The notes beneath the pieces are model-generated. The model was not told the origin of the DNA, searched no databases, and saw nothing but the letters and a program-made list of their open reading frames with translations. A DNA stretch of 41,060 nt from Vulcanococcus limneticus LL (GTDB taxonomy: Bacteria; Cyanobacteriota; Cyanobacteriia; PCC-6307; Cyanobiaceae): positions 1 through 41,060 of the forward strand of contig NZ_NQLA01000027.1 in the NCBI RefSeq assembly GCF_002252705.1. The letters run 5' to 3'. Shown in pieces: positions 7,415 to 35,363 of this stretch. Position numbers and translations under genes: made by a program. Every line of letters begins with the position of its first letter. Within the stretch, counting starts at the first letter, position 1.

Positions 7415-8194
7415 ATGACCCAGGAACGGCTGCTGGGCGACGACGATCCACCGGTGTTCCGCATTGAGCGCCCCGACGGCCGCTCGTCTGTCCTGATCAC
7501 CTGCGACCACGCCGGGCGTGCGATCCCCCGCCGCCTCAACCGGCTCCAGCTTTCGGAGGAGACCCTGTCGACCCATGTGGCCTGGGATCTGGGGGTGGCC
7601 GAACTGGGACGGCGCCTGTCGCTGCGGCTCGATGCCTTCCTGATTCAGCACAACTACTCACGGCTGGTGATCGATGCGAACCGACCGCCGGGTGCGGCCG
7701 ACTCCATCCCCGTGCTCAGCGAGCGCACCCGGATCGCCGCAAACGAGGGCCTTTCGGCCCAGGGCAGACGTCAGCGGCTGGAGGAGGTGTTCACTCCCTA
7801 CCACCGGCGCATCGGCAGCGAGATCGACCGGCGCAACCGGCAGGGCAGCCCCAGCGTGCTGCTGGCCCTGCACAGCTTCACACCCATCTACCTGGGAGAG
7901 GAGCGGCCCTGGCATGCCGGCGTGTTGTTCGGCCGGGATCCACGCCTGGGACGGCTGATGCACAGCCGGCTCAGCCAGGACAACTCCCTGCTGGTGGGCG
8001 AGAACGCTCCCTATGCCGTGAGCGACGACACCGACTACACGATCGTGGTGCATGGGGAGCAGCGCAAGATTCCCCATGTGGAACTGGAAATCCGTCAGGA
8101 TCTGCTTCAGAGCGACGCCGGGGTCGAGCACTGGAGCGAGCGACTGGCCCAGGCACTCGAAGTCACCCTGCCGCAATTGATCGGGCGCAGCTGA
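7415..8194 (+). CDS. N-formylglutamate amidohydrolase family protein
   Basis: A 259-residue enzyme of the N-formylglutamate amidohydrolase (HutG/FGase) family, which hydrolyses N-formyl-L-glutamate or related N-acyl amino acids. Typical landmarks are SVLITCDHAGRAIPRRL near the N terminus, THVAWDLGVAELGRRLS, YSRLVIDANRPP, LALHSFTP and HVELEIRQDL. The His, Asp and Glu residues in these motifs are the likely Zn ligands or catalytic groups. I prefer ATG at 7415 over 7361 because the first 18 residues of the longer form (rich in Ser/Pro) are not family-like. No other histidine-degradation genes are nearby, so the physiological substrate is uncertain. The stop codon lies inside a 14-bp tandem duplication. 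Confidence 0.87.
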   Translation: MTQERLLGDDDPPVFRIERPDGRSSVLITCDHAGRAIPRRLNRLQLSEETLSTHVAWDLGVAELGRRLSLRLDAFLIQHNYSRLVIDANRPPGAADSIPVLSERTRIAANEGLSAQGRRQRLEEVFTPYHRRIGSEIDRRNRQGSPSVLLALHSFTPIYLGEERPWHAGVLFGRDPRLGRLMHSRLSQDNSLLVGENAPYAVSDDTDYTIVVHGEQRKIPHVELEIRQDLLQSDAGVEHWSERLAQALEVTLPQLIGRS

Positions 8195-8205
8195 TCGGGC
8201 GCAGC
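8178..8205. repeat. 14-bp perfect tandem duplication over a stop codon
   Basis: TGATCGGGCGCAGC occurs twice head-to-tail (8178-8191 and 8192-8205) and is followed by a further TGA. The first junction supplies the stop codon of the amidohydrolase gene, so the second copy is untranslated. This looks like replication slippage. Confidence 0.9.
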
Positions 8206-8484
8206 TGAAGGGGCTCAGCTCCACTGGGGCGGAGCGGCGGCCAAGCAGGCGCTTCGATGCCTGTGGCTGAGCGAACGTCTAAGCTGAAGCCAAGGAGGAG
8301 AGAGATGCTCAGGGTAAACAATTCACCGATCCGACACGTCTTCAGCTTTTTCAGTCAAGCCTCAACTGCCAAGCTCTGCGTGCAAATACTCATCATTGAG
8401 AGCCAATATCATGGGGCCAGCTTTGAACTGCAGAGACGTGATCACTGAGCGAAGCTTGGCCGATCGAATTCCCAAGAGGTTTTG

Positions 8485-19712: not shown

Positions 19713-20792
19713 TCAGCTGCCGGCCCCGTAGAACCGCCTGCGCAGCCCCAGCGACAGATACACGAGGCTGACCAGAACCGGCACCTCAATCAGTGGGCCG
19801 ATCACGCCCGCCAGCGCCTGGCCCGAACTCACCCCAAAGAGGCTGACGCTGACCGCGATCGCCAGCTCGAAGTTGTTGCCCGCCGCGGTGAAGGCCAGGG
19901 TTGCCGTGTCCGGATAGCTCAGCCCCTGGCGAACGCCCACGGCGAAGGCCACGCCCCACATGATCGCGAAGTAGCAGAGCAGGGGCATCGCGATCCGCAC
20001 CACGGTGCCCAGCTCGGACGTGATCGCCTGGCCCTGCAGGGCGAACATCACCAGGATCGTGAACAGCAGGCCGTAGAGCGCCAGAGGGCTGATCAGCGGC
20101 AGAAAGCGCTGCTCATACCAGCGGCGGCCCTTGACCCGCAGGCCGATCCAGCGGGTGAGAAAGCCCCCCACCAGCGGGATGCCCAGAAAGATCAGCACCG
20201 CCCGGGCGATCTCGGCGGTGGAGATGGCCACCTCCTGGCGATCCCAGCCGAACCAGCCGGGCAGAACCTGGAGGTAGAAGCTGCCGAGCAGGGCATAGAG
20301 CAGCACCTGCAGGATCGAGTTGACGGCCACCAACAGCGCCGCGCCCTCGCGATTCCCCTGGGCCAGATCAATCCAGATCAGCACCATGGCAATGCAGGGG
20401 GCGATGCCGATCAGCACCAGACCGGTGCGATAGGCGGGCTGATCGGGCAGAAACAGCCAGGCCAGGGCGAACATCAGCGCCGGACCCAGCAACCACACCA
20501 ACAGCAGGGAGAGGCGCAACAGCTTGCGGTCGCCCCGGGAGGAACCCATCTGCTCGTAGCGCACCTTGGCCAGGACCGGGTAGAGCATCAGCAACAGGCC
20601 GAAGGCGATCGGCAGGGAGGTCTGGCCGACCTGCACGGCATCGAGCCAGCCCTGCAGCCCGGGCACCAGCCGGCCGAGCAATAACCCGCCGGCCATCGCC
20701 AGCAGGATCCAGACCGGCAGAAAGCGATCGAGCAGGGACAACCGCGCCCTGAGGGGATCGGGGGGCGGCTCCTGGGGGCGGGTGATCGGCAT
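19713..20792 (-). CDS. acr3: ACR3 family arsenite efflux permease
   Basis: A 359-residue inner-membrane transporter that expels arsenite. It has about ten hydrophobic helices and ACR3 hallmarks: LYPVLAKVRYEQM after the second helix, GIAPCIAMVLIW with the essential Cys of TM4, VNSILQVLLYA, PLSxY-like ALYGLLFTILVMF and TAAGNNFELAIAV. Length is typical. ATG at 20792 shares one base with the arsR stop (TGATG), so arsR and acr3 form a tight operon. A strong GC stem (CGGGGCC at 19706-19712 with GGCCCCG at 19722-19728) straddles the stop and could end the transcript. Confidence 0.95.
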   Translation of the reverse strand: MPITRPQEPPPDPLRARLSLLDRFLPVWILLAMAGGLLLGRLVPGLQGWLDAVQVGQTSLPIAFGLLLMLYPVLAKVRYEQMGSSRGDRKLLRLSLLLVWLLGPALMFALAWLFLPDQPAYRTGLVLIGIAPCIAMVLIWIDLAQGNREGAALLVAVNSILQVLLYALLGSFYLQVLPGWFGWDRQEVAISTAEIARAVLIFLGIPLVGGFLTRWIGLRVKGRRWYEQRFLPLISPLALYGLLFTILVMFALQGQAITSELGTVVRIAMPLLCYFAIMWGVAFAVGVRQGLSYPDTATLAFTAAGNNFELAIAVSVSLFGVSSGQALAGVIGPLIEVPVLVSLVYLSLGLRRRFYGAGS

Positions 20793-21112
20793 CACAGGCA
20801 GGGGGGTGCGGGGGTGCGGCAGTGGCCGGCCAGGCCACCCAGCCACTGCTGGAGCTGCTCGATGGCCTCACTCCGGAGGCGGTAGTAGGTCCAGCGGCCC
20901 TCCTGGCGGTCGGCCAGCAGGCCCGCCTCCTTCAGCACCTTGAGGTGGAAGGACAGCTTCGACTGGGCCAGGCCCAGCTCAGCCGTGAGGTCACAGACGC
21001 AGCGCTCGCCGCCAGCCAGGACCTCGATCACCTGCAGGCGCAAGGGGTCAGCGAGGGCCTTGAGCCGGGCCCGGGCCTGCTCGGGGGCGATGGGGTGATC
21101 CAGAACACGCAT
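20792..21112 (-). CDS. arsR: ArsR family arsenite-responsive repressor
   Basis: A 106-residue ArsR/SmtB winged-helix repressor that should release DNA on binding As(III) or Sb(III). The DNA-binding core is LADPLRLQVIEVLAGGERC followed by LGLAQSKLSFHLKVLKEAGL. The metalloid-binding Cys pair lies in helix 3 (C38 and C40 in ERCVCDL), as in the classical ArsR site, and extra Cys occur at the C terminus (GHCRTPAPPC) that could complete a three-Cys site. It is co-transcribed with acr3. Inverted-repeat operators lie immediately upstream, between it and the divergent gap-arsJ genes, so it probably controls both sides. Confidence 0.94.
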   Translation of the reverse strand: MRVLDHPIAPEQARARLKALADPLRLQVIEVLAGGERCVCDLTAELGLAQSKLSFHLKVLKEAGLLADRQEGRWTYYRLRSEAIEQLQQWLGGLAGHCRTPAPPCL

Positions 21113-21115
21113 GGC

Positions 21116-21149
21116 ATCAAGTTTAATTGATTCATCAACTGGACTTGAT
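21116..21149. promoter_or_regulatory. ArsR operator region (overlapping inverted repeats)
   Basis: ATCAA (21116-21120), TTGAT (21127-21131), ATCAA (21134-21138) and CTTGAT (21144-21149) make overlapping inverted repeats in an AT-rich patch between arsR and gap. The TTGAT-TC-ATCAA core is of the kind bound by SmtB/ArsR repressors. Its place between divergent starts fits control of both directions. Confidence 0.65.
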
Positions 21150-21201
21150 CGGGGCCCCGCGGGGGCCCAGCCCGGTCCGTGATCCGCAGCAAGCCCTTCC
21201 C

Positions 21202-22260
21202 ATGAAACTCGGCATCAACGGCTTCGGTCGCATCGGCCGTCTCGTGTTCCGCGCCCTCTGGGGCCGCCCCGGCATCGAGATCGTGCACATCAACGATCCC
21301 GCCGCCGATGCCGTCGCCGCCGCCCACCTGCTCGCCTTCGACTCGGTGCATGGCCGCTGGCACCACGACGTGGCCGTCAGCCCCGACCGACCGGAGGCGT
21401 TCACGGTGGCGGGCCAGACGATCGGCACCAGCCGCCACGCCGATCCCACGGCCGTGCCCTGGCGAGAGGCCGGGGTGGAGCTGGTGCTCGAGTGCAGCGG
21501 CAGGTTCAAGACGCCCGAAACCCTGCAGCCCTACTTCGATCAGGCCGGCCTGCGGCGCGTCGTGGTGGCCTGCCCGGTGAAGGGCGTGATCGCCGGCGCC
21601 GAGGCCCTCAACGTGGTGTTCGGCATCAACCACCAGCTCTACGACCCCGCCGTCCATCGCCTAGTGACCGGGGCCTCCTGCACCACCAACTGCCTGGCGC
21701 CTGTGGTGAAGGTGGTGCACGAGAGCTTCGGCATCCGCCACGGCTCAATCACCACCCTGCACAACATCACCAACACCCAGGTCGTCGTCGATGGCTTCAA
21801 GGGCGACCTGCGCCGGGCCCGCTCCGCCAGCCAGAGCCTGATTCCCACGACCACGGGCTCGGCCAAGGCGATCGGCCTGATCTTCCCCGAGCTGCAGGGG
21901 CGCCTCAACGGCCACGCCGTCCGGATACCGCTGCTCAATGGCTCCCTCACCGATGCGGTGTTCGAACTGGAGCGCAGCGTCAGCGTGGAGGAGGTGAACG
22001 GTGCCTTCGCGGCCGCCGCCGCCGGCCCACTGGCCGGAATTCTCGGCTACGAGACCCGACCGCTGGTGTCCATCGACTACGTGAACGATCCCCGCAGCGC
22101 CATCGTCGATGGCCCCTCGACGCTGGTGGTGAATGGCACCCAGCTCAAGGTCTACGCCTGGTACGACAACGAGTGGGGTTACAGCTGCCGCCTGGCCGAC
22201 CTGGTGAGCCACGTGGTGGCGAGCGAGCCCACCGGCGAATCCGCCCCAGTGGCGAACTGA
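21202..22260 (+). CDS. Glyceraldehyde-3-phosphate dehydrogenase, ArsJ-associated
   Basis: A 352-residue NAD(P)-dependent GAPDH. ATG at 21202 starts the Rossmann fold ([20 protein letters not shown]). The catalytic Cys160 lies in [13 protein letters not shown], and the His in [11 protein letters not shown]. The C-terminal [13 protein letters not shown] segment is intact. Next to arsJ and arsR this enzyme is known to use arsenate in place of phosphate, making 1-arseno-3-phosphoglycerate, which ArsJ exports. It is therefore a detoxification paralogue rather than the main glycolytic or Calvin-cycle enzyme. Three bases separate it from arsJ. Control by ArsR is likely from the shared operator region. 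Confidence 0.93.
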
Positions 22261-22263
22261 GCC

Positions 22264-23559
22264 ATGGATCAGGGCAACTCCCAGCGCGATTCGCGCGTCA
22301 GCCTGCGCCAGCCACTCTCGGCGCTGCAGCAGTACATGGTGGTGACCGGCGCCTACTGGGCCTTCACCCTCACCGATGGCGCCCTGCGCATGCTGGTGGT
22401 GTTCCACTTCCACCAGCTCGGCTACTCCACCCTGGAGATCGCCTTTCTGTTCCTGTTCTACGAATTCTTCGGCATCCTCACCAACCTCTATGGCGGCTGG
22501 CTGGGGGCGCGCTTCGGCCTGCGGCTCACGCTCTGGGCCGGGATGGTGCTGCAGATCCTGGCCCTGTTGATGCTGGTGCCCGTCTCGGCCAGCTGGCCCA
22601 AGCTGACGTCCGTCGTCTACGTGATGGCGGCCCAGGCCCTCAGCGGCATCGCCAAGGACCTCAACAAGATGAGCGCCAAGAGTGCCATCAAGACAGTGGT
22701 GCCCCAGACCCCCGGCGAGGAGCAGCGCGGCGAGCAGCAGCTGTTCCGCTGGGTGGCGATTCTCACCGGTTCCAAGAACGCCCTCAAGGGCGTGGGCTTC
22801 TTCCTCGGCGGCGTGCTGCTGGCCAGCCTCGGCTTCGCGGGCTCCGTGGCAACGATGGCGGCGGGGCTGTTCGTGGCCCTGCTGGGAACCCTGGTGCTGC
22901 CTGGCGAGATCGGCAGGATGAAGCAGAAACCGGGATTCGCCTCAATCTTCTCCAAGAGTGAGGGGATCAATGTGCTGTCGCTGGCGCGCTTCTTCCTGTT
23001 CGGCGCCCGCGATGTTTGGTTCGTGGTGGCGTTGCCGGTGTTTCTGGAGGCGAGCCTGGGCTGGCGGTTCTGGGAGGTGGGCGGCTTCCTGGGCCTGTGG
23101 GTGATCGGCTACGGCATCGTGCAGGGCTCCGCCCCGGCCCTGCGCCGTGCCTGGGGCCAGAGCGCCCCGCCTGGCCCCGCGGCCGTGCAGTTCTGGAGTG
23201 CGCTGCTCACCGCCATCCCGGCCCTGATCGCCGTGGCCCTCTGGCGCGAGGTGGCCCATCCGGGGGTGGCGATCGTGGTGGGGCTGGCGGCCTTCGGGGC
23301 TGTGTTCGCCATGAATTCCTCGATCCACAGCTATCTCGTGCTCGCCTACACCGACAGCGAATCGGTGAGCCTGAACGTGGGCTTCTATTACATGGCCAAT
23401 GCCGCCGGACGGCTGCTGGGCACCCTGCTCTCCGGTGGCGTGTATCTGCTCGGCGGAATGCAGGCGTGCCTGTGGTGCTCAGCCCTGCTGGTGGGCCTGT
23501 CGTATCTGAGCAGCCGGCGCCTGCCGGCGCTAAGGCAGGCGGCAGTGAGCGCGGCCTGA
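22264..23559 (+). CDS. arsJ: Organoarsenical efflux MFS transporter ArsJ
   Basis: A 431-residue major-facilitator protein with about twelve helices. It reads YMVVTGAYWAFTLTDGALRM in TM1, a LYGGWLGARFGLRLTLWAGM loop (MFS motif A) and the characteristic GIAKDLNKMSAKSAIK loop of ArsJ proteins, followed by a long polar middle (QTPGEEQRGEQQLFRWVAIL). ArsJ exports the unstable 1-arseno-3-phosphoglycerate formed by the preceding GAPDH, which breaks down outside to arsenate, giving arsenate resistance without a reductase. No arsC is seen in the window. A stem-loop with T residues follows about 60 bp later. Confidence 0.94.
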   Translation: MDQGNSQRDSRVSLRQPLSALQQYMVVTGAYWAFTLTDGALRMLVVFHFHQLGYSTLEIAFLFLFYEFFGILTNLYGGWLGARFGLRLTLWAGMVLQILALLMLVPVSASWPKLTSVVYVMAAQALSGIAKDLNKMSAKSAIKTVVPQTPGEEQRGEQQLFRWVAILTGSKNALKGVGFFLGGVLLASLGFAGSVATMAAGLFVALLGTLVLPGEIGRMKQKPGFASIFSKSEGINVLSLARFFLFGARDVWFVVALPVFLEASLGWRFWEVGGFLGLWVIGYGIVQGSAPALRRAWGQSAPPGPAAVQFWSALLTAIPALIAVALWREVAHPGVAIVVGLAAFGAVFAMNSSIHSYLVLAYTDSESVSLNVGFYYMANAAGRLLGTLLSGGVYLLGGMQACLWCSALLVGLSYLSSRRLPALRQAAVSAA

Positions 23560-24678: not shown

Positions 24679-25371
24679 TCAGCGGCTCGCCAGCTGCCGC
24701 AGCTCGCCCTGCAGGCTGGCGAGGTCGGCCGGCGTGTCGATGTCCACCAGGGGCTCCTGCTCATGCCAGGAGCAAGCGGCGGTGGCCAGGCGGCGGCGCG
24801 TTTCGGCCAGGACCGCCGGCGTACTCCAGGGCATGGCCGCGAACAGGCTGGACTCAAAGCGCCGCAGCCCCAAGAGGGCATAGCCCCCATCCCGCGTCGG
24901 CACCAGGGCCGCATCGTGGTGCAGCAGCTGGGCGGCGGCGACCCGCAGCTGGGGCACCCCCAGGGCAGGGCAGTCCATGCCGATCAGCAGCACCGGATCG
25001 CCGCCTTCAAGCGCACGGCTGGCGGCCCGCGCCATCCGCTCGCCCAGATCCCCCTCCCCCTGCGCGCTCCAGGCCAGGCCCGGGGGCAGCTGGAGCCGCC
25101 GCCAGATGGACAGCTGCAGCGCGGGGGCCACGCACAGCTCCACCGGCCCCAGATCGGCCGCGATGGCGGTGGCCGCCGCCCGCTCCAGCATCGCGGCCGC
25201 CAGGGCCGCCGCCCCCTCCGGCCCCAGGGCGGGGATCAGGCGGGTCTTCACCTGGCCGGGTAGCGGTGCCTTCGCCATCAGGATCGTGCGGCACTGCAAG
25301 GGCGATCCGGGGGCATGAACCGCCAGGCTGGCATGGGGATCCTTCCGCCCCTGCCCTCCCGTCTCCGCCAT
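24679..25371 (-). CDS. TIGR04282-type arsenosugar-cluster glycosyltransferase (DUF2064)
   Basis: A protein of up to 230 residues with a nucleotide-diphosphosugar transferase-like fold. Landmarks are MAKAPLPGQVKTRLIPALGP (the family N terminus), GEGDLGERMARA, VLLIGMDCPAL (DxD-like) and PTRDGGYALLGLR. The family occurs beside ArsM/ArsS and is proposed to add or process sugar moieties of arsenosugars. The start is uncertain: ATG at 25371 overlaps the divergent arsM start, and the family consensus begins near TILMAKAP, so TTG at 25299 or ATG at 25278 may be real. It lies alone on the minus strand between arsS and arsM. Confidence 0.85.
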   Translation of the reverse strand: MAETGGQGRKDPHASLAVHAPGSPLQCRTILMAKAPLPGQVKTRLIPALGPEGAAALAAAMLERAAATAIAADLGPVELCVAPALQLSIWRRLQLPPGLAWSAQGEGDLGERMARAASRALEGGDPVLLIGMDCPALGVPQLRVAAAQLLHHDAALVPTRDGGYALLGLRRFESSLFAAMPWSTPAVLAETRRRLATAACSWHEQEPLVDIDTPADLASLQGELRQLASR

Positions 25372-26422
25372 GACCAGCCTCACCAGCGCCGTTCAGGAGT
25401 ACTACGGCTCCACCCTCACGGGCACCGCGGACCTGCGCACCAGCGCCTGCTGCGATGCCACCAGCGTGCCCGAGGCCCTCAGGCCCCTGCTGGCCCGCAT
25501 TCACCCCGAGGTGCTGTCGCGCTACTACGGCTGCGGCCTGGTGGCACCGCCGTTGCTGCAGGGGGCCCGGGTGCTGGACCTGGGCTCTGGCAGCGGCCGG
25601 GATGTGTACCTGCTCGCCCAGCTGGTGGGGGCGAGCGGCGAGGTGGTGGGCGTGGACATGACCGCCGAGCAGCTGGCGGTGGCCGAGCGCCACTGCGCCT
25701 TCCACGCCGAGCGCTTCGGCTACGCCAATGTGCGCTTCCTGGAAGGCGCCATCGAGCGGCTGGAGGAGCTGGATCTGGAGCCCGCCAGTTTCGATCTGGT
25801 GATCTCCAACTGCGTCGTCAACCTCTCTATTGACAAGCTCGCCGTGTTGCAGGGGGTAAGGCGGCTGTTGAAGCCCGGCGGTGAGTTCTACTTCGCCGAT
25901 GTCTACGCCGATCGGCGCATTCCCCAGGCGCTGCGCGACGATCCGGTGCTCTACGGCGAATGCCTGAGCGGCGCCCTCTACTGGAACGACTTCCTGCGGC
26001 TGGCGCGGCAGGCCGGCTTCGCCGATCCCCGGCTGGTGAGCGACCGGCCCCTGCAGGTCACCGACGCCGATCTGGCCGCCCGCACCGGCACGATCGGCTT
26101 CCATTCCGCCACCTACCGGCTGTTCCACATCGACGGCCTGGAGGACGCCTGCGAGGACCACGGCCAGGCGGTGATCTATCGCGGCACGATCCCCGAGCAC
26201 CCCCACCAGCTGCCCTTCGACAAGCACCACCTGATCGAGACCGGCCGGGTGTTTCCGGTGTGCGGCAACACCTACCGCATGCTCGCCGAAAGCCGCTTTG
26301 CGGACCATTTCACGTTCATCGGCGACTTCAGCCGCCACTACGGCCTGTTCGCCGGCTGCGGCGGCTCCCTGCCGTTCGACACCACCACGGCCGAGGCCTC
26401 CGCAGGCGGCTCCTGCTGCTGA
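25370..26422 (+). CDS. arsM: Arsenite S-adenosylmethionine methyltransferase ArsM
   Basis: A 350-residue SAM-dependent methyltransferase that methylates As(III) to mono- and dimethyl species. SAM motif I is VLDLGSGSGRDVY (about 68-80). The arsenic-binding cysteines can be assigned from spacing to the characterised algal ArsM: C27 and C55 (SACC, YYGCG), C148 (ISNCVVNLS) and C198 (YGECLSG); the last two have exactly the 50-residue separation seen there. The C terminus GGSCC is a further Cys pair of the long ArsM type. It should supply methylated arsenic to ArsS. It is convergent with the fused glycosyltransferase gene and starts head-to-head with the TIGR04282 gene. Confidence 0.95.
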   Translation: MTSLTSAVQEYYGSTLTGTADLRTSACCDATSVPEALRPLLARIHPEVLSRYYGCGLVAPPLLQGARVLDLGSGSGRDVYLLAQLVGASGEVVGVDMTAEQLAVAERHCAFHAERFGYANVRFLEGAIERLEELDLEPASFDLVISNCVVNLSIDKLAVLQGVRRLLKPGGEFYFADVYADRRIPQALRDDPVLYGECLSGALYWNDFLRLARQAGFADPRLVSDRPLQVTDADLAARTGTIGFHSATYRLFHIDGLEDACEDHGQAVIYRGTIPEHPHQLPFDKHHLIETGRVFPVCGNTYRMLAESRFADHFTFIGDFSRHYGLFAGCGGSLPFDTTTAEASAGGSCC

Positions 26423-26429
26423 GCGCTCC

Positions 26430-27827
26430 TCAGCGGTAGAGGCGCACCAGGACGGTGGCGGGCACCCCGAGCCAGTAGGCGAGCCGCAACCCCCACATCA
26501 GCAGGATCGTGCGCCAGACGCCGTGGCGTTCCCAGCGACGCCCGGAGGTCAGCACCGGCGACCGCAGGCAGACGGGTGGGCCCAGGCGTTTCAGCCGGGC
26601 AGAGAGGTCGATGTCCTCCATCAGGGGTTGATCCGCAAAGCCACCCACCTGCCCGTAGGCCTCCCGGGTCATGAACAGGGCCTGATCGCCGGTGGCGATG
26701 CCGCTGAGCCGGGAGCGCAGATTGATGGCCCAGGCCACCACGGCCAGCAGGCGACGCTCGCTGTCGATGTGCACGTCGAAGCGGCCCCAGCAACGGGGCC
26801 CCTGCAGTCCCTGGTGCACCAGCTCCAACCCATTCGCCGGCAGGCGGGTGTCCGCGTGCAGGAACAGGAGGATCTCGCCCCTGGCCCGTGCGGCCCCGGT
26901 CCGCAGCTGCCGGCCCCGCCCCCGCGGCGCGGCGACCACCCGCAGGCCAGCCTGCTGCAGCAACGCCACGGTGTCGTCATTGCTGCCGCCATCCACCAGC
27001 AGCACCTCGGCGCCACTGGCTTCCAACGCCTTCCAGCTGGCGCCGCACTGCCGCACCGCCTGGGCCTCATTCAGCACCGGGATGATCACGCTGAGGCGCG
27101 GTCTGCGGCGGCGACGCACCGCCTGAATCTGGCCCTGGATCTCGGCCTGGAGTGCGGCCAGGTCCGCGGACCAGTCGATGCTGCGGGAGCTGGGGATCTC
27201 CAGGCGGCGATCCTCCAGGGCCGCCTCGCGTTCGCCCGCCTGGGCGTGGCGTTCCAGGCAGGCGTCGCGCTCCTGCAGCAACGCCGCGATCACGGGCCGG
27301 TAGAAGACCAGGAAGTGGGTGAGCCAGCGGCCCAGGTGGGGATCCAGGCGGCGCGGCTCCGGGGCAGATGCGCCGGCGGACAAACCATCCGGCACCGGGA
27401 ATGCAAACCTCTCGAGTAGCGGCAGCGTCTCGGCGGCAGGCAGCCAGGCATCCGCCGCCACCCAGCGGTTGAGTGTGAACAGGCCAATCGGCAGGCCCCT
27501 GGCATCGAGGCTGATGCCGATCAGGTGGGTGAGCTCCGCCCCTGGGGCCGCCGGCACGAACAGATGCAGGTGGCCGTGTTCGCCGCCATCGCGATGGCAG
27601 TGGTAATAGAACTGGGCGCCCGAAGTTGGATCGCGCCCATCGCCCTCGGGGTAGTGGCGCTCCGCCACAACCGTGCCGCCCCCCGTGAGGGCGACGACCA
27701 CGGAGCCGTGGCGCTCGGTGAGGCGTAGCCAGAGGCGCAGGCTTCGGCAGGCCGCCCGGTAGCGCTGCAGCGCCCGTGGATCGATACCAGAGCCGCTCAG
27801 CGTCCTTGAGCTGCAGGAGAGGGACAA
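26430..27827 (-). CDS. DUF6969-like domain fused to TIGR04283-type arsenosugar glycosyltransferase
   Basis: A 465-residue two-part protein. Residues about 20-235 match a DUF6969-like family. They include VVAERHYPEGDGRDP, AQFYYHCHRDGGEHGHLHLF with clustered His, LTHLIGISLDARGLPIGLFT, NRWVAADAW and LEDRRLEIPSS. Residues about 243-465 form a family 2 glycosyltransferase: LSVIIPVLNEAQAV, VDGGSNDDTVALL, HADTRLPANGLELVHQG and GGFADQPLMEDIDLSARLKR, with the acceptor-site ED of TIGR04283 proteins found in arsenosugar clusters. The linker is Arg-rich (AVRRRRRPR). The start is TTG at 27827, as no ATG is near, and this is uncertain. The His cluster HGHLHLF suggests a metal site. The fusion implies that the DUF6969 part works on the same arsenosugar pathway. 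Confidence 0.85.
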   Translation of the reverse strand: MSLSCSSRTLSGSGIDPRALQRYRAACRSLRLWLRLTERHGSVVVALTGGGTVVAERHYPEGDGRDPTSGAQFYYHCHRDGGEHGHLHLFVPAAPGAELTHLIGISLDARGLPIGLFTLNRWVAADAWLPAAETLPLLERFAFPVPDGLSAGASAPEPRRLDPHLGRWLTHFLVFYRPVIAALLQERDACLERHAQAGEREAALEDRRLEIPSSRSIDWSADLAALQAEIQGQIQAVRRRRRPRLSVIIPVLNEAQAVRQCGASWKALEASGAEVLLVDGGSNDDTVALLQQAGLRVVAAPRGRGRQLRTGAARARGEILLFLHADTRLPANGLELVHQGLQGPRCWGRFDVHIDSERRLLAVVAWAINLRSRLSGIATGDQALFMTREAYGQVGGFADQPLMEDIDLSARLKRLGPPVCLRSPVLTSGRRWERHGVWRTILLMWGLRLAYWLGVPATVLVRLYR

Positions 27828-27922: not shown

Positions 27923-29224
27923 ATGGCCCCCAGGGCTCGCCGGATCGCGGTGCTGATGCTCGTGGCGGGCTGGCTGCTGGCGTTGCTCCTGCACGGACCC
28001 AGCAGCGTCCGCGCCCAACCGGCGCCAACGCCTGGCGCCTCGGTGCCAGCCCAACCCGCCCCCGCGATCGAGCGCACCGAGCTGCGCGGCGTGTGGCTCA
28101 CCGCCAACGACATGCCCACCCTGCGGGACCGCGAGCGCATGCAGGCGACCGTGGCCCAGCTGGCCGCGCTCAACTTCAACACCCTCTATGCAGTGGCCTG
28201 GAACGGGGGGCATGCCTATTACCCCAGCCCCGTGAGCGAGGGGCGCGGGCTGCAGAGCTTCAGCTACCGCGGCCTGCAGGGCCAGGACGTGCTGGCCGAA
28301 CTGAGCGAAGCGGCCCACCGGCACGGCCTGCTGCTGATCCCCTGGTTCGAGTTCGGCTTCATGACCCCCCCCGATGGCGAGCTGGCCCGGCGCCATCCCG
28401 ACTGGCTCACCCGCAAGCAGGACGGCGGCCGCACCTCGATCAGCGCCGCCGGGGAGGTGGCCTGGCTCAATCCCTTCCGGCCGGAGGTGCAGCAGCTGAT
28501 CACCGACCTGGTGCTTGAGGTGGTGGGCAACTACGACGCCGATGGCATCCAGTTCGACGACCACATGAGCCTGCCGCGGGAGTTCGGCTACGACCCCTTC
28601 ACCATGGCGCTCTACGCCAAGGAAACCGGCAAGCCGCCACCGGCCAACCCAGCCGATGCCGCCTGGATGAAGTGGCGCACCGAGAGGATCACCGCCTTCA
28701 TCGGCCGGCTCAGCCAGGCAGTGAAGGCGCGCAGACCCGGAGCGATCGTCTCGGTGTCGCCCAACTATTACGACTTCGCCCTCAAGCTGCAGCTGCAGGA
28801 CTGGCTGGCCTGGGTGCGGCGCGGTCTGGTGGATGAGCTGCTGATCCAGATCTATCGCCCGGATCTGGAGAGCTTCGTGCCCCAGCTCGACCGGCCGGAG
28901 GTTCAGGAGAGCCAGCGCCGCATCCCCACGGCGATCGGAATCATGAGCGGCCAGCGCACCCGGCCGGCGCCGATGGCGCTGATCCAGGGCCAGGTGCAGG
29001 CCGCCCGCGAGCGCCAGCTGGGGGTGGCGTTCTTCTACCTCGAAAGCCTCTGGGCCCTCAGCGGCGAGCCCCGCGAGTCGCGCCTGGCCGCCCTGGCCCA
29101 GCTGTTCTCCTTGCCCGCCAGGCGCCAGCGGCCACCCTCTGGCCCTGGGCCCGGGTCCCCGGCACCGGGGCGCCCCGCTCCACCCCTGGCTCCGCCCCCG
29201 CTACCGCCCCCGCCGGGTCCCTAG
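27923..29224 (+). CDS. GHL10/DUF187-type glycoside-hydrolase-like exported protein
   Basis: A 433-residue protein starting at ATG 27923, where a signal/anchor segment begins (RRIAVLMLVAGWLLALLLHG). The longer frame from 27776 has a non-signal leader. The mature core (about 55-390) is a GHL10 TIM barrel: TELRGVWLTANDMPTLRDRE, LNFNTLYAVAWNGGHAYYPS, LLIPWFEFGFMTPP, YDADGIQFDDHMSLP and VSVSPNYYDFA. It is followed by a Pro-rich tail (PGPGSPAPGRPAPPLAPP) that probably extends into the periplasm or wall. Substrate is unknown; related proteins act on envelope polysaccharides. It overlaps the convergent crcB gene by 24 bp. Confidence 0.87.
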   Translation: MAPRARRIAVLMLVAGWLLALLLHGPSSVRAQPAPTPGASVPAQPAPAIERTELRGVWLTANDMPTLRDRERMQATVAQLAALNFNTLYAVAWNGGHAYYPSPVSEGRGLQSFSYRGLQGQDVLAELSEAAHRHGLLLIPWFEFGFMTPPDGELARRHPDWLTRKQDGGRTSISAAGEVAWLNPFRPEVQQLITDLVLEVVGNYDADGIQFDDHMSLPREFGYDPFTMALYAKETGKPPPANPADAAWMKWRTERITAFIGRLSQAVKARRPGAIVSVSPNYYDFALKLQLQDWLAWVRRGLVDELLIQIYRPDLESFVPQLDRPEVQESQRRIPTAIGIMSGQRTRPAPMALIQGQVQAARERQLGVAFFYLESLWALSGEPRESRLAALAQLFSLPARRQRPPSGPGPGSPAPGRPAPPLAPPPLPPPPGP

Positions 29225-29626
29225 ACGCCGACCCAGGGCAGAACCCAGCACCACCAGGCCCAGGCCCGCCCCCAGGCTCACCAGCAGCACCGCCAGGGCG
29301 GCCGGGGTGGAGCCCCGCCGCAGCGCCTCAGCCAGCTGCAGCATCCAGGAGGAGAAGGTGGTGAGCGAGCCGCAGAAGCCGATGCCGGCCCACAGGTAGA
29401 GCCGTTGCGATCCAGGCGGCTGGGCGGTGAGCACGCCGATCAGCAGACAGCCGATCAAGTTGGCCAGCAGGTCCGCGGCCGTGAGGCCCCGCATGCCACC
29501 CACGGCCTGGTGGCCGATCAGCTCCAGTTGCCAGCGGAGCAGGGCGCCTGGGATCGCACCGGCGGCCACGAGCACCAGATCGCGCACCTCGCCCCGCAGC
29601 AGCGGCTTCCAGGGACCCGGGCTCAT
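29201..29626 (-). CDS. crcB: CrcB/Fluc fluoride channel subunit
   Basis: A 141-residue four-helix membrane protein. ATG at 29626 overlaps the second crcB gene by 4 bp (ATGA). Family landmarks are AAGAIPGALLRWQLE, LLANLIGCLLIGVL with the Asn of the fluoride path and GFCGSLTTFSSWMLQ (the GFCGGxTTFSxF-like signature). The pair likely forms a heterodimeric fluoride exporter. The frame continues far upstream, but only this part is CrcB-like. It overlaps the end of the convergent GHL10 gene. Confidence 0.92.
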   Translation of the reverse strand: MSPGPWKPLLRGEVRDLVLVAAGAIPGALLRWQLELIGHQAVGGMRGLTAADLLANLIGCLLIGVLTAQPPGSQRLYLWAGIGFCGSLTTFSSWMLQLAEALRRGSTPAALAVLLVSLGAGLGLVVLGSALGRRLGTRRGR

Positions 29627-29997
29627 GGCTGCTCCCCCAGGGCCAGGCCGGCCGCCATCGCCACCAGCCCCCCAGCCACCGACCCCCCCGCCAGCAAACT
29701 CGCCTCGCGCCAGTGGCGAGTCGCCAGGACAGCCCGCAGCTCGGCGATGAAGGTGGAGAAGGTGCTGAAGCTGCCGAGAAAGCCCGTGCCGAGCAGCAAC
29801 AGCACCCGCTGGCCAGGGCCGCAGCTGCGCTCCAGGCCCACGAGCAGGCCCAGCGCAAAACAGGCAATCACGTTCACCCCGAAGGTGCCCCAGTGCTTGC
29901 GGGGCAGCATCGGCTCGAAGTGGTTCACCACCCGGAAGCGAAGCCAGGCCCCGGGTACGGCCCCCAGCGCCACCAGCAGCGGATCGGAACTGGCCAT
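29623..29997 (-). CDS. crcB: CrcB/Fluc fluoride channel subunit (second copy)
   Basis: A 124-residue partner of the adjacent crcB. ATG at 29997 gives MASSDPLLVALGAVPGAWLR; an upstream frame start at 30069 adds an unrelated leader. It shows TFGVNVIACFALGLLVG with the conserved Asn and GTGFLGSFSTFSTFIAE, the fluoride-channel signature. Tandem unequal crcB genes encode dual-subunit channels in many bacteria. It is divergent from the DUF389 gene with only 33 bp between starts, too short for a fluoride riboswitch. Confidence 0.92.
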   Translation of the reverse strand: MASSDPLLVALGAVPGAWLRFRVVNHFEPMLPRKHWGTFGVNVIACFALGLLVGLERSCGPGQRVLLLLGTGFLGSFSTFSTFIAELRAVLATRHWREASLLAGGSVAGGLVAMAAGLALGEQP

Positions 29998-30030
29998 CGG
30001 AGCCCGGGCGGAACAGTCCAGGTAGTTTCG

Positions 30031-31185
30031 ATGGCCGCAGCTGAGCCACCCGTGACCGCCAGCGACCACCTCACGGCGCTCAGGGCCGACTTCGAGCAGG
30101 ACGCGCGCCTGAATGAGGTGTTCCTGGTGCTCAGCGTGGGCGCCAGCCTGATCGCCATCCTCGGCCTTCTGGCCAACAGCACGGCTGTGGTGATCGGCGC
30201 CATGGTGGTCGCCCCCTGGATCTCGCCGCTGCGCTCGATGGCCTTCGGCATCCTGGAGGGGCGCTTCGCCCTGGTGGGCCAGGCCCTCGGCACCCTGGCC
30301 ACCGGCGTCGTGAGCACCACGGCGATCGCGGCCCTGCTGGGCAGCTTCTCCGGCTTCCCGAGCTTCGGCAGTGAAGTGCTCAGCCGCACGGCTCCCAACC
30401 TGCTGGATCTGGGCATTGCGCTTGTGGCCGGCGGCATCGCCACCTACGCGCGGGTGCGCAGCGACGCGGTGTCGTCGATTGCCGGCACCGCCATCGCCGT
30501 GGCCCTGGTGCCGCCGATGTGTGTGGTGGGGCTACTGCTCTCGGCCGGCCTGTGGGAACCGGCCCTCGGGGCCGCCCTGTTGTTCGCCACCAACCTGCTG
30601 GGCATCCTCAGCGGCGGCCTGGTGGTGCTCGCGATCCTGGAGCCATCGCTGCGGTTCCGCTTCTGGCGCAGCCGCGTGGGGCTGGTGAGCCTGCTGCTCA
30701 CGGCCCTGCTGTTGATTCCCCTGAGCAGCAGTTTCCTGCGGCTGCTGGATCAGGCCCGGCGCGACGCGGCCCTGCAGCTGGTGGAGCGCGCCATCGCCAC
30801 CAACCTCAAGCGGGAGACGGTGAGCCTGGGACGGGATGCCGACGTGGTGGGTGTGTCCATCGACTGGACGCAGAACCCGCCCCTGATCCGCGCCTCTGCG
30901 CGCGTGACCAACCCGCAGCTGCCAACGCCGAAGCAGGTTGCAGCCCTTCAGGACTACATCAACAGCAAGCAGCCGATCAACTTCCGGCTGGTGGTGCAGC
31001 GCTTGTCCACCGATGTGGTGGGCCCCGAGACCGATCCCAACCCGCCCCAGGTTCAGGAGAAGCTGCGGAAGGGGAGGCTGAACCCGATTCCCGAACTGCC
31101 CCCGCTGCCGGAGCCCGCGGCTGCGCCAAGCGGCGAGCCTGCTCCGGAAGGCGAGGCCAAGCCTGCGGCACCCGCCGGGACCTAG
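30031..31185 (+). CDS. DUF389 (TIGR00341-type) multi-pass membrane protein
   Basis: A 384-residue membrane protein starting at ATG 30031; the frame extends 106 codons further upstream but only antisense to crcB. Six or so helices are visible, with LLANSTAVVIGAMVVAPWIS and PLRSMAFGIL near the N terminus, AIVxGAMVVAPxxxPL being the DUF389 hallmark, and SSIAGTAIAVALVPPMCVVG further on. The cytoplasmic C-terminal region (about 250-350) is soluble and ends in a Pro/Glu/Ala-rich tail. Function in the family is unknown. It overlaps the convergent EAL gene by 4 bp. Confidence 0.88.
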   Translation: MAAAEPPVTASDHLTALRADFEQDARLNEVFLVLSVGASLIAILGLLANSTAVVIGAMVVAPWISPLRSMAFGILEGRFALVGQALGTLATGVVSTTAIAALLGSFSGFPSFGSEVLSRTAPNLLDLGIALVAGGIATYARVRSDAVSSIAGTAIAVALVPPMCVVGLLLSAGLWEPALGAALLFATNLLGILSGGLVVLAILEPSLRFRFWRSRVGLVSLLLTALLLIPLSSSFLRLLDQARRDAALQLVERAIATNLKRETVSLGRDADVVGVSIDWTQNPPLIRASARVTNPQLPTPKQVAALQDYINSKQPINFRLVVQRLSTDVVGPETDPNPPQVQEKLRKGRLNPIPELPPLPEPAAAPSGEPAPEGEAKPAAPAGT

Positions 31186-32987: not shown

Positions 32988-33152
32988 GGGCAAGTCATCC
33001 ACCTGATTCTGAGAATTTAATTGCTGGCGATCAGCCCAACAGAGGTGGATGTAGCCCCACACACATTCTTGGTCTGCTGCATGCTGCTGTGGATTGATTG
33101 GTAGAAGGTGAGCCCATCCCCTGACGTACATTCCTCTAAACTTGCACCAGAG

Positions 33153-34322
33153 ATGGCCCAAGCCCAGCCCCTGCTTGCCGGCGCCCGTCCCACCCCCCAG
33201 AGCCGTCTGCTGGTGATGCTGTTGGCCCTGGTGGCCGCCCTGGTGGTGGGCGTGGTGGGTTACGGCTGGCGCCAGAGCGCCCTGGCGCTGGTTGGGGTTC
33301 TGTTCGGCATCAGCCTTTACCACGCCAGTTTTGGCTTTGCCTCCTCCTACCGGCAGCTGCTGCTGCGTGGCGATGGCCGCGGGGTGCTCGCCCAGGTGCT
33401 CATGCTCAGCGTGGCCACCCTGCTGTTCGCTCCGCTGCTGATCGCCGGCGTGGGGCGGGGCGCCGTGGCGCCGTTGGCGTTGCAGGCGGTGATCGGCGCC
33501 TTCCTGTTCGGGATCGGCATGCAGCTGGGCAGCGGCTGCGCCTGCGGCACCCTCTACACGATCGGAGGGGGCAGCGCCATGATGGTGCTCACCCTGGTGA
33601 GCTTCTCGGGCGGCTCCTTCGCCGCGAGCCTCAGCACCGAAGCCTGGGCCGTCCTACCTCGGCTCGACCCCGTCTCGCTCCTGCAGCGCTGGGGCTGGGC
33701 GGGTGCCGGCCTGCAGCTGCTGGTGCTCGCCATCCTGGCCCTGGCGCTCTGGCGCTGGCAGCGTCCCCGGCTGGCGGAGGAGGGCTTCTGGCCGCGCACC
33801 CCGGGTTGGCGCAACCTGGCACTGGGCCCCTGGTCGCTGGTGGGAGGGGCGGTATCGCTGGCCCTGCTCAACGCCCTCACCGTGGTGCTGGCAGGGCGGC
33901 CCTGGGGCGTCACCCGGGGCTTCACGCTCTGGGCCGCCAAACTGGCCACCCTGCTGGGCTGGAACCCCGATACCAGCCCGATCTGGAGCCAGGGCCCCTT
34001 CGCCACAGCCCTGCAGGCCAGCCTGTTCGCCGACGTCACCTCGGTGATGAACCTGGGCATCGTGCTGGGTTCGGCCACGGCGGCGGCCCTGGCGGGACGG
34101 CTGAGCGTGCGCACGCCACCGTCGGCGGCGGCCTGGCTGGCGGCCCTGCTGGGCGGCCTGATGATGGGATACGGCGCCTGGCTGGCCTTCGGCTGCAACG
34201 TGGGCGCCTACTTCAGCGGGATCGCCTCCACCAGCCTGCACGGCTGGCTGTGGATTGCCTTTGCCCTGCTGGGCACGGCCGTGGGGGTGCGGCTGCGCCC
34301 CTGGTTCGGCCTGCCCAGCTGA
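33153..34322 (+). CDS. YeeE/YedE family sulfur-compound transporter
   Basis: A 389-residue membrane protein with about ten helices starting at ATG 33153. The two conserved Cys-containing signatures are present: GIGMQLGSGCACGTLYTIGG in the first half and GYGAWLAFGCNVGAYFSGIA in the second half, which match the thiosulfate-path cysteines of TsuA/YeeE proteins. Its likely substrate is thiosulfate or another sulfur species, but neighbouring sulfur-metabolism genes are not seen. The gene ends 22 bp before the convergent DUF4079 gene. Confidence 0.9.
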   Translation: MAQAQPLLAGARPTPQSRLLVMLLALVAALVVGVVGYGWRQSALALVGVLFGISLYHASFGFASSYRQLLLRGDGRGVLAQVLMLSVATLLFAPLLIAGVGRGAVAPLALQAVIGAFLFGIGMQLGSGCACGTLYTIGGGSAMMVLTLVSFSGGSFAASLSTEAWAVLPRLDPVSLLQRWGWAGAGLQLLVLAILALALWRWQRPRLAEEGFWPRTPGWRNLALGPWSLVGGAVSLALLNALTVVLAGRPWGVTRGFTLWAAKLATLLGWNPDTSPIWSQGPFATALQASLFADVTSVMNLGIVLGSATAAALAGRLSVRTPPSAAAWLAALLGGLMMGYGAWLAFGCNVGAYFSGIASTSLHGWLWIAFALLGTAVGVRLRPWFGLPS

Positions 34323-34344: not shown

Positions 34345-35043
34345 TCAGGGCTGGCTCGCCGGGCACTGTTGGGTCTCGAAGTTGCAGCTGTAGATGGCCG
34401 GCTTCTGCCAGTTCAGCGGAATCTCCAGCAGATCCCGCGGGCCGCTGATGCCCTGGGCCAGAAACACCACGGCAGCAAGCACGTTGGCGCTCACGTGCAG
34501 GCGACGCCAGCGCAGGCTGCGGTAGATCTCGGGCTTGGAGGCCAGCGACAACAGGAGCAGGCCGCACAGGCCAATGCCTCCCCAGAAGTGCGACTGCCAG
34601 AAGGCCAGCTGGAAGGGGTTGTCGCTGAGGCGGTAGACCTCGCCCTGCAGGCCCAGGCCGATCAGCCCCGCCCAGGTGAGCAGGGCGAAGCTGGCCCGGT
34701 ACACCGAGTCCCGGGCCCGCCACAGGGCGGCGAAGGCGGCCGTGGTGCCCACTACCACCAGGCTCAGCAGCCCCAGCCGGCTGGGTCCGCCGGCAAACTC
34801 TGCCAGGGGCTTGCTGGTGGCGATAACCACCACCAGGGCCACGAGCACCCCGAGCACCACCGCGCCGCTGAGAAGCCGGCCCAGGTCTGCATGGTCGCGG
34901 CCCACGGTGGCCGGATCCTTGCTGTGCTCGAGGCGGCGACGCCGGGTCTGGAGTGCCAGGCGCAGCACCTGGCCGAGCAGGGGGTAGATCACCACCACGG
35001 CCAGAACCGGGTGCAGCAACCAGAGCCAGTCAACGGTCTGCAT
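34345..35043 (-). CDS. DUF4079 family membrane protein, cytochrome b561-like
   Basis: A 232-residue protein with five or six transmembrane helices. The conserved His positions fall in separate helices: LLHPVLAVVVIY, HADLGRLLSGAV, WQSHFWGGIGLCG and RRLHVSANVLAAVVFLAQ, followed by the ISGPRDLLEIPLNWQ tail typical of DUF4079. Four such His in four helices is the spacing expected for two haem b groups as in b561-type electron carriers, which is my inference. The C terminus YSCNFETQQCP has two Cys. It lies downstream of a small exported Cys/Gly/His-rich protein gene, probably one operon. Confidence 0.85.
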   Translation of the reverse strand: MQTVDWLWLLHPVLAVVVIYPLLGQVLRLALQTRRRRLEHSKDPATVGRDHADLGRLLSGAVVLGVLVALVVVIATSKPLAEFAGGPSRLGLLSLVVVGTTAAFAALWRARDSVYRASFALLTWAGLIGLGLQGEVYRLSDNPFQLAFWQSHFWGGIGLCGLLLLSLASKPEIYRSLRWRRLHVSANVLAAVVFLAQGISGPRDLLEIPLNWQKPAIYSCNFETQQCPASQP

Positions 35044-35120: not shown

Positions 35121-35363
35121 TCAGTGGCCGCCGTGGGCACCGCAGCCACCGGCCGGGCTGGAGGCGCCGCAACCACCGGCCTCCGAAGCGGAAGCGGCGG
35201 GCTTGGCGGGAGCCGCCTTGGGCTTGTTGCCCTTGGCGGCCGGGGTGGTGGCCTTGCCGGAGCTACCGCCGGTGCTCTGGGCCAGGGCTGGAGCCACCAC
35301 GGCGGCGCTGCTGATCACAGCGGCGGCCAGGCCACGGGCCAGCCGGTCGGACAGGGAAGGCAT
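35121..35363 (-). CDS. Small exported Ala/Lys/Pro-rich protein with Cys-Gly-His tail
   Basis: An 80-residue protein from ATG 35363; the frame continues upstream but without a signal peptide. MPSLSDRLARGLAAAVISSA followed by AVVAPALAQ is a typical signal peptide. A low-complexity linker (GNKPKAAPAKPAASASEA) follows, and then GGCGASSPAGGCGAHGGH: two GGCGA units and two His. The tail is a plausible metal-binding or thiol-modified element in the periplasm. I do not recognise a named family; Cys-rich bufferin- or HvfA-like RiPP precursors are a loose comparison only, and no DUF692-type partner is nearby. It is co-directional with the DUF4079 gene 77 bp downstream. Confidence 0.7.
   Translation of the reverse strand: MPSLSDRLARGLAAAVISSAAVVAPALAQSTGGSSGKATTPAAKGNKPKAAPAKPAASASEAGGCGASSPAGGCGAHGGH

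Follow-up and report, generated by a model that had tools for sequence, protein, structure and literature searches.

The recurrent partner of the DUF6969 domain appears, from gene sequences in cyanobacteria, betaproteobacteria, and alphaproteobacteria, to be the gene of a small cysteine-rich peptide. We consider it fairly probable that an exported peptide, itself probably a binder of metal(loid)s, is matured or handled by DUF6969. In the window, i.e., the whole stretch of 41,060 nt from Vulcanococcus limneticus LL (Cyanobiaceae) analyzed here, DUF6969 is fused to an arsenic-pathway glycosyltransferase (GT). The peptide partner is a more important result than the fusion itself. At the sequence level, the elements of this picture are the fusion, with its conservation and constraint, the position of peptide genes next to DUF6969 in several groups, the co-occurrence of the two in the family Cyanobiaceae, and the lack of the enzyme MNIO in the carriers of this family. 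We know of no role for DUF6969. No paper in the open-licence literature that we searched names it, and none was found there for TIGR04283. Combined searches of titles and abstract beginnings returned no such peptide-DUF6969 system, and it is within these searches that we regard it as not in print.

A conserved fusion gene in the arsenic island

The fusion gene was initially described, in a sequence-only reading of the window, as one frame of 465 residues. A frame of 465 codons does exist at 26430..27827, on the minus strand, but its TTG start at 27827 is doubtful. It is lacking in the same gene of a second genome (G497, locus L017), where the sequence upstream of the conserved region has a nearby stop and no ATG, GTG, or TTG. 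Therefore, the CTG at 27800-27798, common to the two genes, is the likeliest start; by this comparison it is probably where translation of the fusion begins, for a product of about 456 aa. We sought a remnant of a peptide gene upstream of the fusion and found nothing convincing.

Profile searches bore out the reading of the first half as DUF6969-like and of the second as a TIGR04283-type glycosyltransferase. Residues 34-217 of the 465-aa frame (27177..27728, minus strand) match DUF6969 (PF22308) over profile positions 12-201 of 201, with 162.9 bits for a gathering cut-off of 27 (E 9.4e-48). Residues 245-464 (26436..27095, minus strand) match the whole NCBIfam model of the GT2 family TIGR04283 (1-221 of 221), with 263.6 bits for a cut-off of 182 (E 1.3e-78). 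The fused GT retains DxGS, HAD, GDQ, and MED, which are invariant among 11 aligned TIGR04283 proteins. By identity to the fused GT, these 11 proteins fall into two types, at 54-82% and at 32-37%.

An assembly or sequencing artefact is unlikely, because G497 has the same fusion in a gene order identical to that of the window. Purifying selection acts on the DUF6969 half (dN/dS 0.41 between the two fusions), the linker (0.15), and the GT half (0.27), and the first 20 codons that could be compared show no non-synonymous change. On the G497 copy and this selection, we rejected a pseudogene, a frameshift, or an artefact of assembly. The fusion is nevertheless a rare event, known from two related genomes: it was found in two of the nine DUF6969 carriers (G000, the window's genome, and G497) among 400 genomes of the family, and no other one was seen in the loci examined. 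From stop to stop, the fused frames measure 485 aa in G000 and 460 aa in G497, both holding the GT, and among the TIGR04283 frames listed for the 400 family genomes no other exceeds 356 aa.

The fusion had been placed inside a full arsM/arsS/arsJ island, which holds for arsS and arsJ. On the plus strand, the gene of the ArsJ-associated GAPDH (21127..22260, 538.1 bits for a cut-off of 450) is followed by those of the ArsJ MFS transporter (22264..23559, 586.7 bits for 400) and of the radical SAM protein ArsS (TIGR04167; 23610..24662, 442.3 bits for 300). The arsenite methyltransferase encoded at 25370..26422, on the same strand, is ArsM-like but falls under both NCBIfam ArsM cut-offs (NF008823, 167.2 bits for 263; NF038099, 94.9 bits for 400). 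On the minus strand are the arsenite efflux protein Acr3 (19713..20846, 414.9 bits for 282.8), an ArsR/SmtB regulator (20792..21112, NF033788), and a TIGR04282 protein (CofC-like, DUF2064; 24679..25383, 193.2 bits for 134). PstS is also among the neighbors of the fusion. Further along, two adjoining CrcB-like genes (29201-30069, minus strand) have a DUF389 gene and one for a GGDEF-EAL protein as neighbors. Papers on ArsS chemistry are cited in parts of PMC12159101 and PMC8552651.

DUF6969 and the arsenosugar genes

The sequence-only reading took DUF6969 to act on, or bind, an arsenosugar. In this reading it would be a step or an accessory of organoarsenic metabolism, with an arsenosugar or an intermediate as its target, and the fusion would channel the substrate. 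We consider this unlikely. DUF6969 was found in one of the 386 genomes of a phylum sample, the window's own, and in nine of the 400 genomes of its family. We built a panel of 70 genomes, kept from 100, that are at least 90% complete and belong to the five genera holding DUF6969. ArsS scores over its cut-off in 69 of them and DUF6969 is present in nine, among which is G419, the sole panel genome without ArsS over cut-off. An ArsM-like gene (E <= 1e-60) occurs in 62 of the 70 and is missing from two DUF6969 carriers, G419 and G573. TIGR04283 is over cut-off in 353 of the 400 family genomes, mostly without DUF6969. Since ArsS, ArsM-like genes, and TIGR04283 are widespread and DUF6969 is rare, the latter is an optional addition to a general set of genes. 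The frequency of TIGR04283 also implies that its name alone does not define an arsenosugar pathway; the term "arsenosugar biosynthesis" in this name may overreach.

We also analyzed 80 loci of public genomes, the best 80 of 561 confirmed relatives and mostly Alphaproteobacteria by record title, a set biased by the retention of the best 80 and by a first query row from Azospirillum. Searches with ArsS, ArsM, TIGR04283, and TIGR04282 (tblastn, E 1e-10) matched the flanks, up to 8 kb, of none of these 80 loci. These flanks and the panel counts rule out DUF6969 as an obligatory arsenosugar gene, and the arsenosugar claim is not supported as a general role. Other neighbors recur among the best 80 of 561 (DUF2336, TRAP transporter, Usp, FGE-sulfatase, phosphoribosyltransferase, and cytochrome c, identified from one scanned member per cluster), each in sub-groups only, and were rejected as indications of function. 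One locus (L043) of the set lies on a contig labelled Phormidium willei, a cyanobacterium, and encodes a DUF6969 that shares 67% identity with the query from Azospirillum; the contig is possibly a contaminant.

The arsenosugar reading draws its support from the fusion in two genomes and from the loci where, as had been predicted, separate DUF6969 genes stand near arsenosugar genes. In six of the nine cyanobacterial carriers DUF6969 is inside the ArsM-ArsS region: two are the fusions, and four, from the family Cyanobiaceae (L148-L151), are unfused, with both ArsM and ArsS at most about 13 kb away. In the Burkholderia glumae plasmid bglu_2p (L015), the gene order is small peptide, DUF6969, MTAP, TIGR04283, TIGR04282, and FAD oxidoreductase, with arsS about 5 kb off. 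In the other three carriers (L016, L022, L023), DUF6969 is instead convergent with YeeE and has no ars genes beside it. At one of these (L022, 8636-9766, in G573), the DUF6969 frame extends well beyond the domain and is there antisense to YeeE, the convergent gene. In the DUF6969 tree, the B. glumae protein is outside the cyanobacterial clade (100/100), on a very long branch and with an unsure placement, and the fused pair clusters with G419 (93/86) and not with the four unfused members of the islands. The link with arsenic may thus have arisen more than once. In sum, the observation of the fusion is confirmed, and the interpretation first given to it is partly supported.

A small cysteine-rich peptide as recurrent partner

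All seven unfused cyanobacterial DUF6969 genes have a related peptide gene directly upstream on the same strand. The TGA of the peptide gene overlaps the ATG of DUF6969 by 1 nt in L016, L023, and L151, and in the other four 3-8 nt separate the two genes, with start codons assigned by eye in L149 and L022. These peptides have in common the N-terminus MxSLSxRLxxGLAxAxxSxAA, followed by Gly-Cys-Gly-type motifs. A second peptide of the same family is encoded in the same ars regions, closer to ArsS (L148, 15105-15335; L149, from 11872; L150, from 13728; G531, C2:376753-376950); the gene after the L149 copy is carboxymuconolactone-decarboxylase-like.

Peptide genes are also found beside DUF6969 in proteobacteria. 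Sinorhizobium meliloti and S. medicae encode, upstream of DUF6969 and overlapping its start, a peptide with motifs like APCAAGAPC; in B. glumae, one with KCGAKCGAK repeats is 100 nt upstream. Many Rhodospirillales have a nearby peptide with CNPCNPCAAK or NPCAA repeats. In Skermanella, an NPC-repeat peptide is 110 nt downstream, and in Ciceribacter the order is rhodanese, YeeE, peptide, DUF6969. These last two loci were fetched after the peptide idea had formed, and Ciceribacter, as a relative of Sinorhizobium, is not a fully independent case.

Several of these loci have other features. The DUF6969 of S. meliloti Rm41 pSymA (L011, 7875-8458) appears frameshifted, because it aligns in two frames (7875-8078 and 8063-8458); the upstream peptide frame is open. 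Next to the small NPC peptide and DUF6969, three loci (L067, 6204-7331; L078, 5447-6637; L082, 3642-4778) encode long proteins in which NPC repeats are combined with a cytochrome P460 domain at the C-terminus. Near the Skermanella pair are a sigma factor of the sigma-70 family and a gene of the NrsF family (L193, 7879-8608), and near that of B. glumae a sigma factor and a zf-HC2 gene, a possible sign of stress regulation. About 6 kb from the B. glumae DUF6969 (L015, 15056-16552), on the opposite strand, are DoxX, a gene annotated "DNA-binding domain" that we take to be DUF2063-like, and a DUF692 gene. This group looks like a bufferin operon.

We quantified the association with a filter for repeats. 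A peptide was detected within 2.5 kb of DUF6969 in 23 of 93 loci (515 kb), versus a single candidate in the remaining 855 kb, itself the second peptide of a DUF6969-bearing ars island (L148). The binomial p value of 2.6e-9 is rough, because of the relatedness among loci and because examples were already known when the filter was designed. The other 70 loci fail the filter, some of them because it is too strict, and the pairs of L012, L013, L022, L023, L148, and L149, found by reading, are not counted in the 23. NPC-repeat frames occur in 28 of the 80 public loci (best 80 of 561), with 35 of the 36 frames at most 1.9 kb from DUF6969 and one at 4.2 kb. Neither filter found an adjacent peptide in 14 Azospirillum loci (L024-L037).

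A profile of the NPC peptides (A4) matched nine of the 17 genomes or records searched. Among 12 alphaproteobacterial genomes without an adjacent peptide, it placed an NPC peptide elsewhere in seven and none anywhere in five (three Azospirillum, one Aerophototrophica, and one MAG). The profile missed the genome of L081 despite its NPC frame and found nothing in the records of S. meliloti and B. glumae, whose peptides differ. The peptides of the different groups have a common architecture and no common sequence. By hydropathy alone, the precursors have a hydrophobic N-terminal segment. Ten of them were scanned against Pfam and NCBIfam: none scores over a cut-off, and there are weak matches, under cut-off, to CefA and AC3_0185-type RiPPs. 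The pairing of peptide and DUF6969 is strong, but not universal.

The peptide of the window

The window has its own peptide gene (35121..35363, minus strand), 7.3 kb from the fused DUF6969 and not adjacent to it. It encodes 80 aa with two cysteines in GGCG motifs and is homologous to the peptides beside unfused DUF6969; it is the predicted partner of the fusion. Downstream is a gene for a DUF4079 protein (34345..35043, minus strand; PF13301, E 1e-32), and beside them is one for a YeeE/YedE-type sulfur transport protein (Sulf_transp; 33108..34322, plus strand; PF04143, E 1.4e-63). G497 has the same arrangement of peptide, DUF4079, and YeeE.

In the panel, the cyanobacterial peptide profile matches all nine DUF6969 carriers and one of the 61 non-carriers (Fisher p 1.5e-10). 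The profile has seven rows, all from carriers, and seven of the nine positives are thus matched by construction; the informative part is the 60 misses among the 61 and the matches in G497 and G573, which are not in the profile. The lone matching non-carrier, G682 (L177), has the leader without the cysteine tail, a rhodanese, a piece resembling the start of YeeE, and no DUF6969. By its sequence, it looks like a worn-down copy of a peptide-YeeE-rhodanese locus. The MNIO family (PF05114) is found in none of the nine cyanobacterial carriers; in the 13 genomes searched, G682 alone is positive, with a gene elsewhere in the genome.

The proximity of YeeE raises another explanation, in which the DUF6969-peptide pair, together with YeeE and rhodanese, handles sulfur or redox stress (thiosulfate, persulfide) and is in arsenic islands only secondarily. 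A YeeE gene stands next to the pair in three cyanobacterial genomes and in S. meliloti, S. medicae, and Ciceribacter; most of these also have rhodanese. YeeE occurs in eight of the 80 other loci (best 80 of 561). Yet the flanks of the remaining 72 of these 80 are without YeeE, and it is not listed beside the B. glumae or Skermanella pairs. We regard this sulfur role as quite unlikely.

Conserved residues and model of DUF6969

An alignment of 36 DUF6969 sequences (A2) has seven invariant histidines (48, 66, 68, 74, 76, 78, and 91, in model numbering) and an invariant Glu 73. In a 10-row alignment that includes B. glumae (A1), five of the seven histidines and the glutamate are invariant, two histidines being absent from the B. 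glumae protein. The model of the domain is confident (pLDDT 86.5, pTM 0.86) and places the invariant residues, except His 48 and Glu 73, on strands 1-3 (62-68, 74-82, and 89-97). A metal site is likely, and this histidine cluster might bind a metal cofactor.

Comparison of the model with PDB folds by Foldseek gave no match at E <= 0.001 (best 0.34), and the best VIA match has Z 3.2 over 67 residues with an rmsd of 4.0. The lack of a fold match does not make DUF6969 a new fold. A HIT-type or cupin-like fold, guessed from HxH and HGHxH, is not supported: the sequence matches to PDB are weak and short, and no fold match is significant.

A proposed role for DUF6969

In the explanation that we favor, DUF6969 would be a protein of the cytoplasm, probably dependent on a metal, and devoted to a small cysteine-rich peptide that is usually encoded by the neighboring gene. 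Most likely, it would modify the cysteines of the peptide or flanking residues before export, as MNIO does on bufferins; less likely, it would solely bind, load, or protect the thiols of the peptide. Once exported, the peptide would buffer thiophilic metal(loid)s, for example Cu(I), As(III), or trivalent methylarsenicals, and the neighboring rhodanese and YeeE may supply sulfur or mark thiol stress. Trivalent arsenicals have an affinity for thiols, and the link of the DUF6969-peptide system with arsenic would follow from this. Export, the metal site, the modification, metal buffering, and the coupling to the GT are steps that we infer.

In the lineage of the window, DUF6969 stands apart from its peptide gene, 7.3 kb away, and is fused to the TIGR04283 glycosyltransferase of the arsenic island, so that one protein would join peptide handling and an arsenic-pathway GT. 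The GT may simply have been joined to a co-regulated partner, or it may glycosylate the peptide. The latter would mean that DUF6969 recognizes or modifies the exported peptide and the GT2 domain adds a sugar, possibly an arsenosugar, giving a glyco- or arseno-peptide. This fits with the fusion of a peptide-linked domain to an intact GT, with the peptide, DUF6969, MTAP, TIGR04283, and TIGR04282 of B. glumae being in one gene run, and with the peptide being kept in both fusion genomes. It is difficult to reconcile with the 353 of 400 family genomes that have TIGR04283 over cut-off, mostly without DUF6969, and with the many DUF6969-peptide loci, the majority, that have no GT nearby. As a role for the fusion we find it very unlikely, and that the peptide bears a sugar or arsenic is improbable to about the same degree.

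Coming back to peptide maturation by DUF6969, the setting is bufferin-like, there is no MNIO in the nine cyanobacterial carriers, and the ten scanned peptides are in no named family; we therefore propose DUF6969 in the place of MNIO, for a different set of peptides. More tentatively, and with somewhat less than even confidence, DUF6969 might be the founding enzyme of an undescribed, MNIO-independent class of exported cysteine-rich peptides that buffer metals or arsenic in cyanobacteria and proteobacteria. Through the peptide link, DUF6969 acquires a function that can be tested, and a bufferin-like system that relies on another enzyme comes into view. The connection of this peptide system to organoarsenic chemistry, through the fusion and the B. 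glumae gene run, raises the question of whether exported peptides contribute to arsenic detoxification.

Comparison with known systems

The N half of the fusion is a full member of the Pfam family DUF6969 (PF22308), from which it differs by the fused GT, present in two of the nine carriers among 400 genomes. The arsenosugar biosynthesis genes (ArsM, ArsS, TIGR04282, TIGR04283) are beside and inside the fusion of the window. Unlike them, DUF6969 is missing from most ArsS-bearing relatives and is present at many loci without these genes nearby.

The closest parallels are with bufferins. In the main text of a survey of MNIO enzymes (PMC12452194), bufferins are exported precursors with cysteine motifs encoded beside a metalloenzyme, and fusions with cytochrome c and FGE-sulfatase are described; DUF6969, arsenosugar, and YeeE are not mentioned in it. 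In Rhodospirillales, the genes near DUF6969 include those for FGE-sulfatase, cytochrome c, and proteins with NPC repeats and cytochrome P460. As far as this text goes, the DUF6969 system resembles bufferins in these FGE-sulfatase and cytochrome c associates and in its metal-stress setting. Unlike in bufferins, the neighbor is DUF6969 and not MNIO (PF05114 in none of the nine cyanobacterial carriers), the ten scanned peptides belong to no Pfam or NCBIfam family, and the system is known here from genes alone. With bufferins and other MNIO-modified RiPPs (MNIO/DUF692, with DUF2063-type partners), as described in the same text, it has in common small peptides with cysteine motifs, N-terminal segments that by hydropathy are of export type, and a neighboring, putatively dedicated enzyme. 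The pairing of genes resembles that of bufferins at all seven unfused cyanobacterial loci, with DUF6969 in the place of the enzyme; in the window, the peptide is 7.3 kb away.
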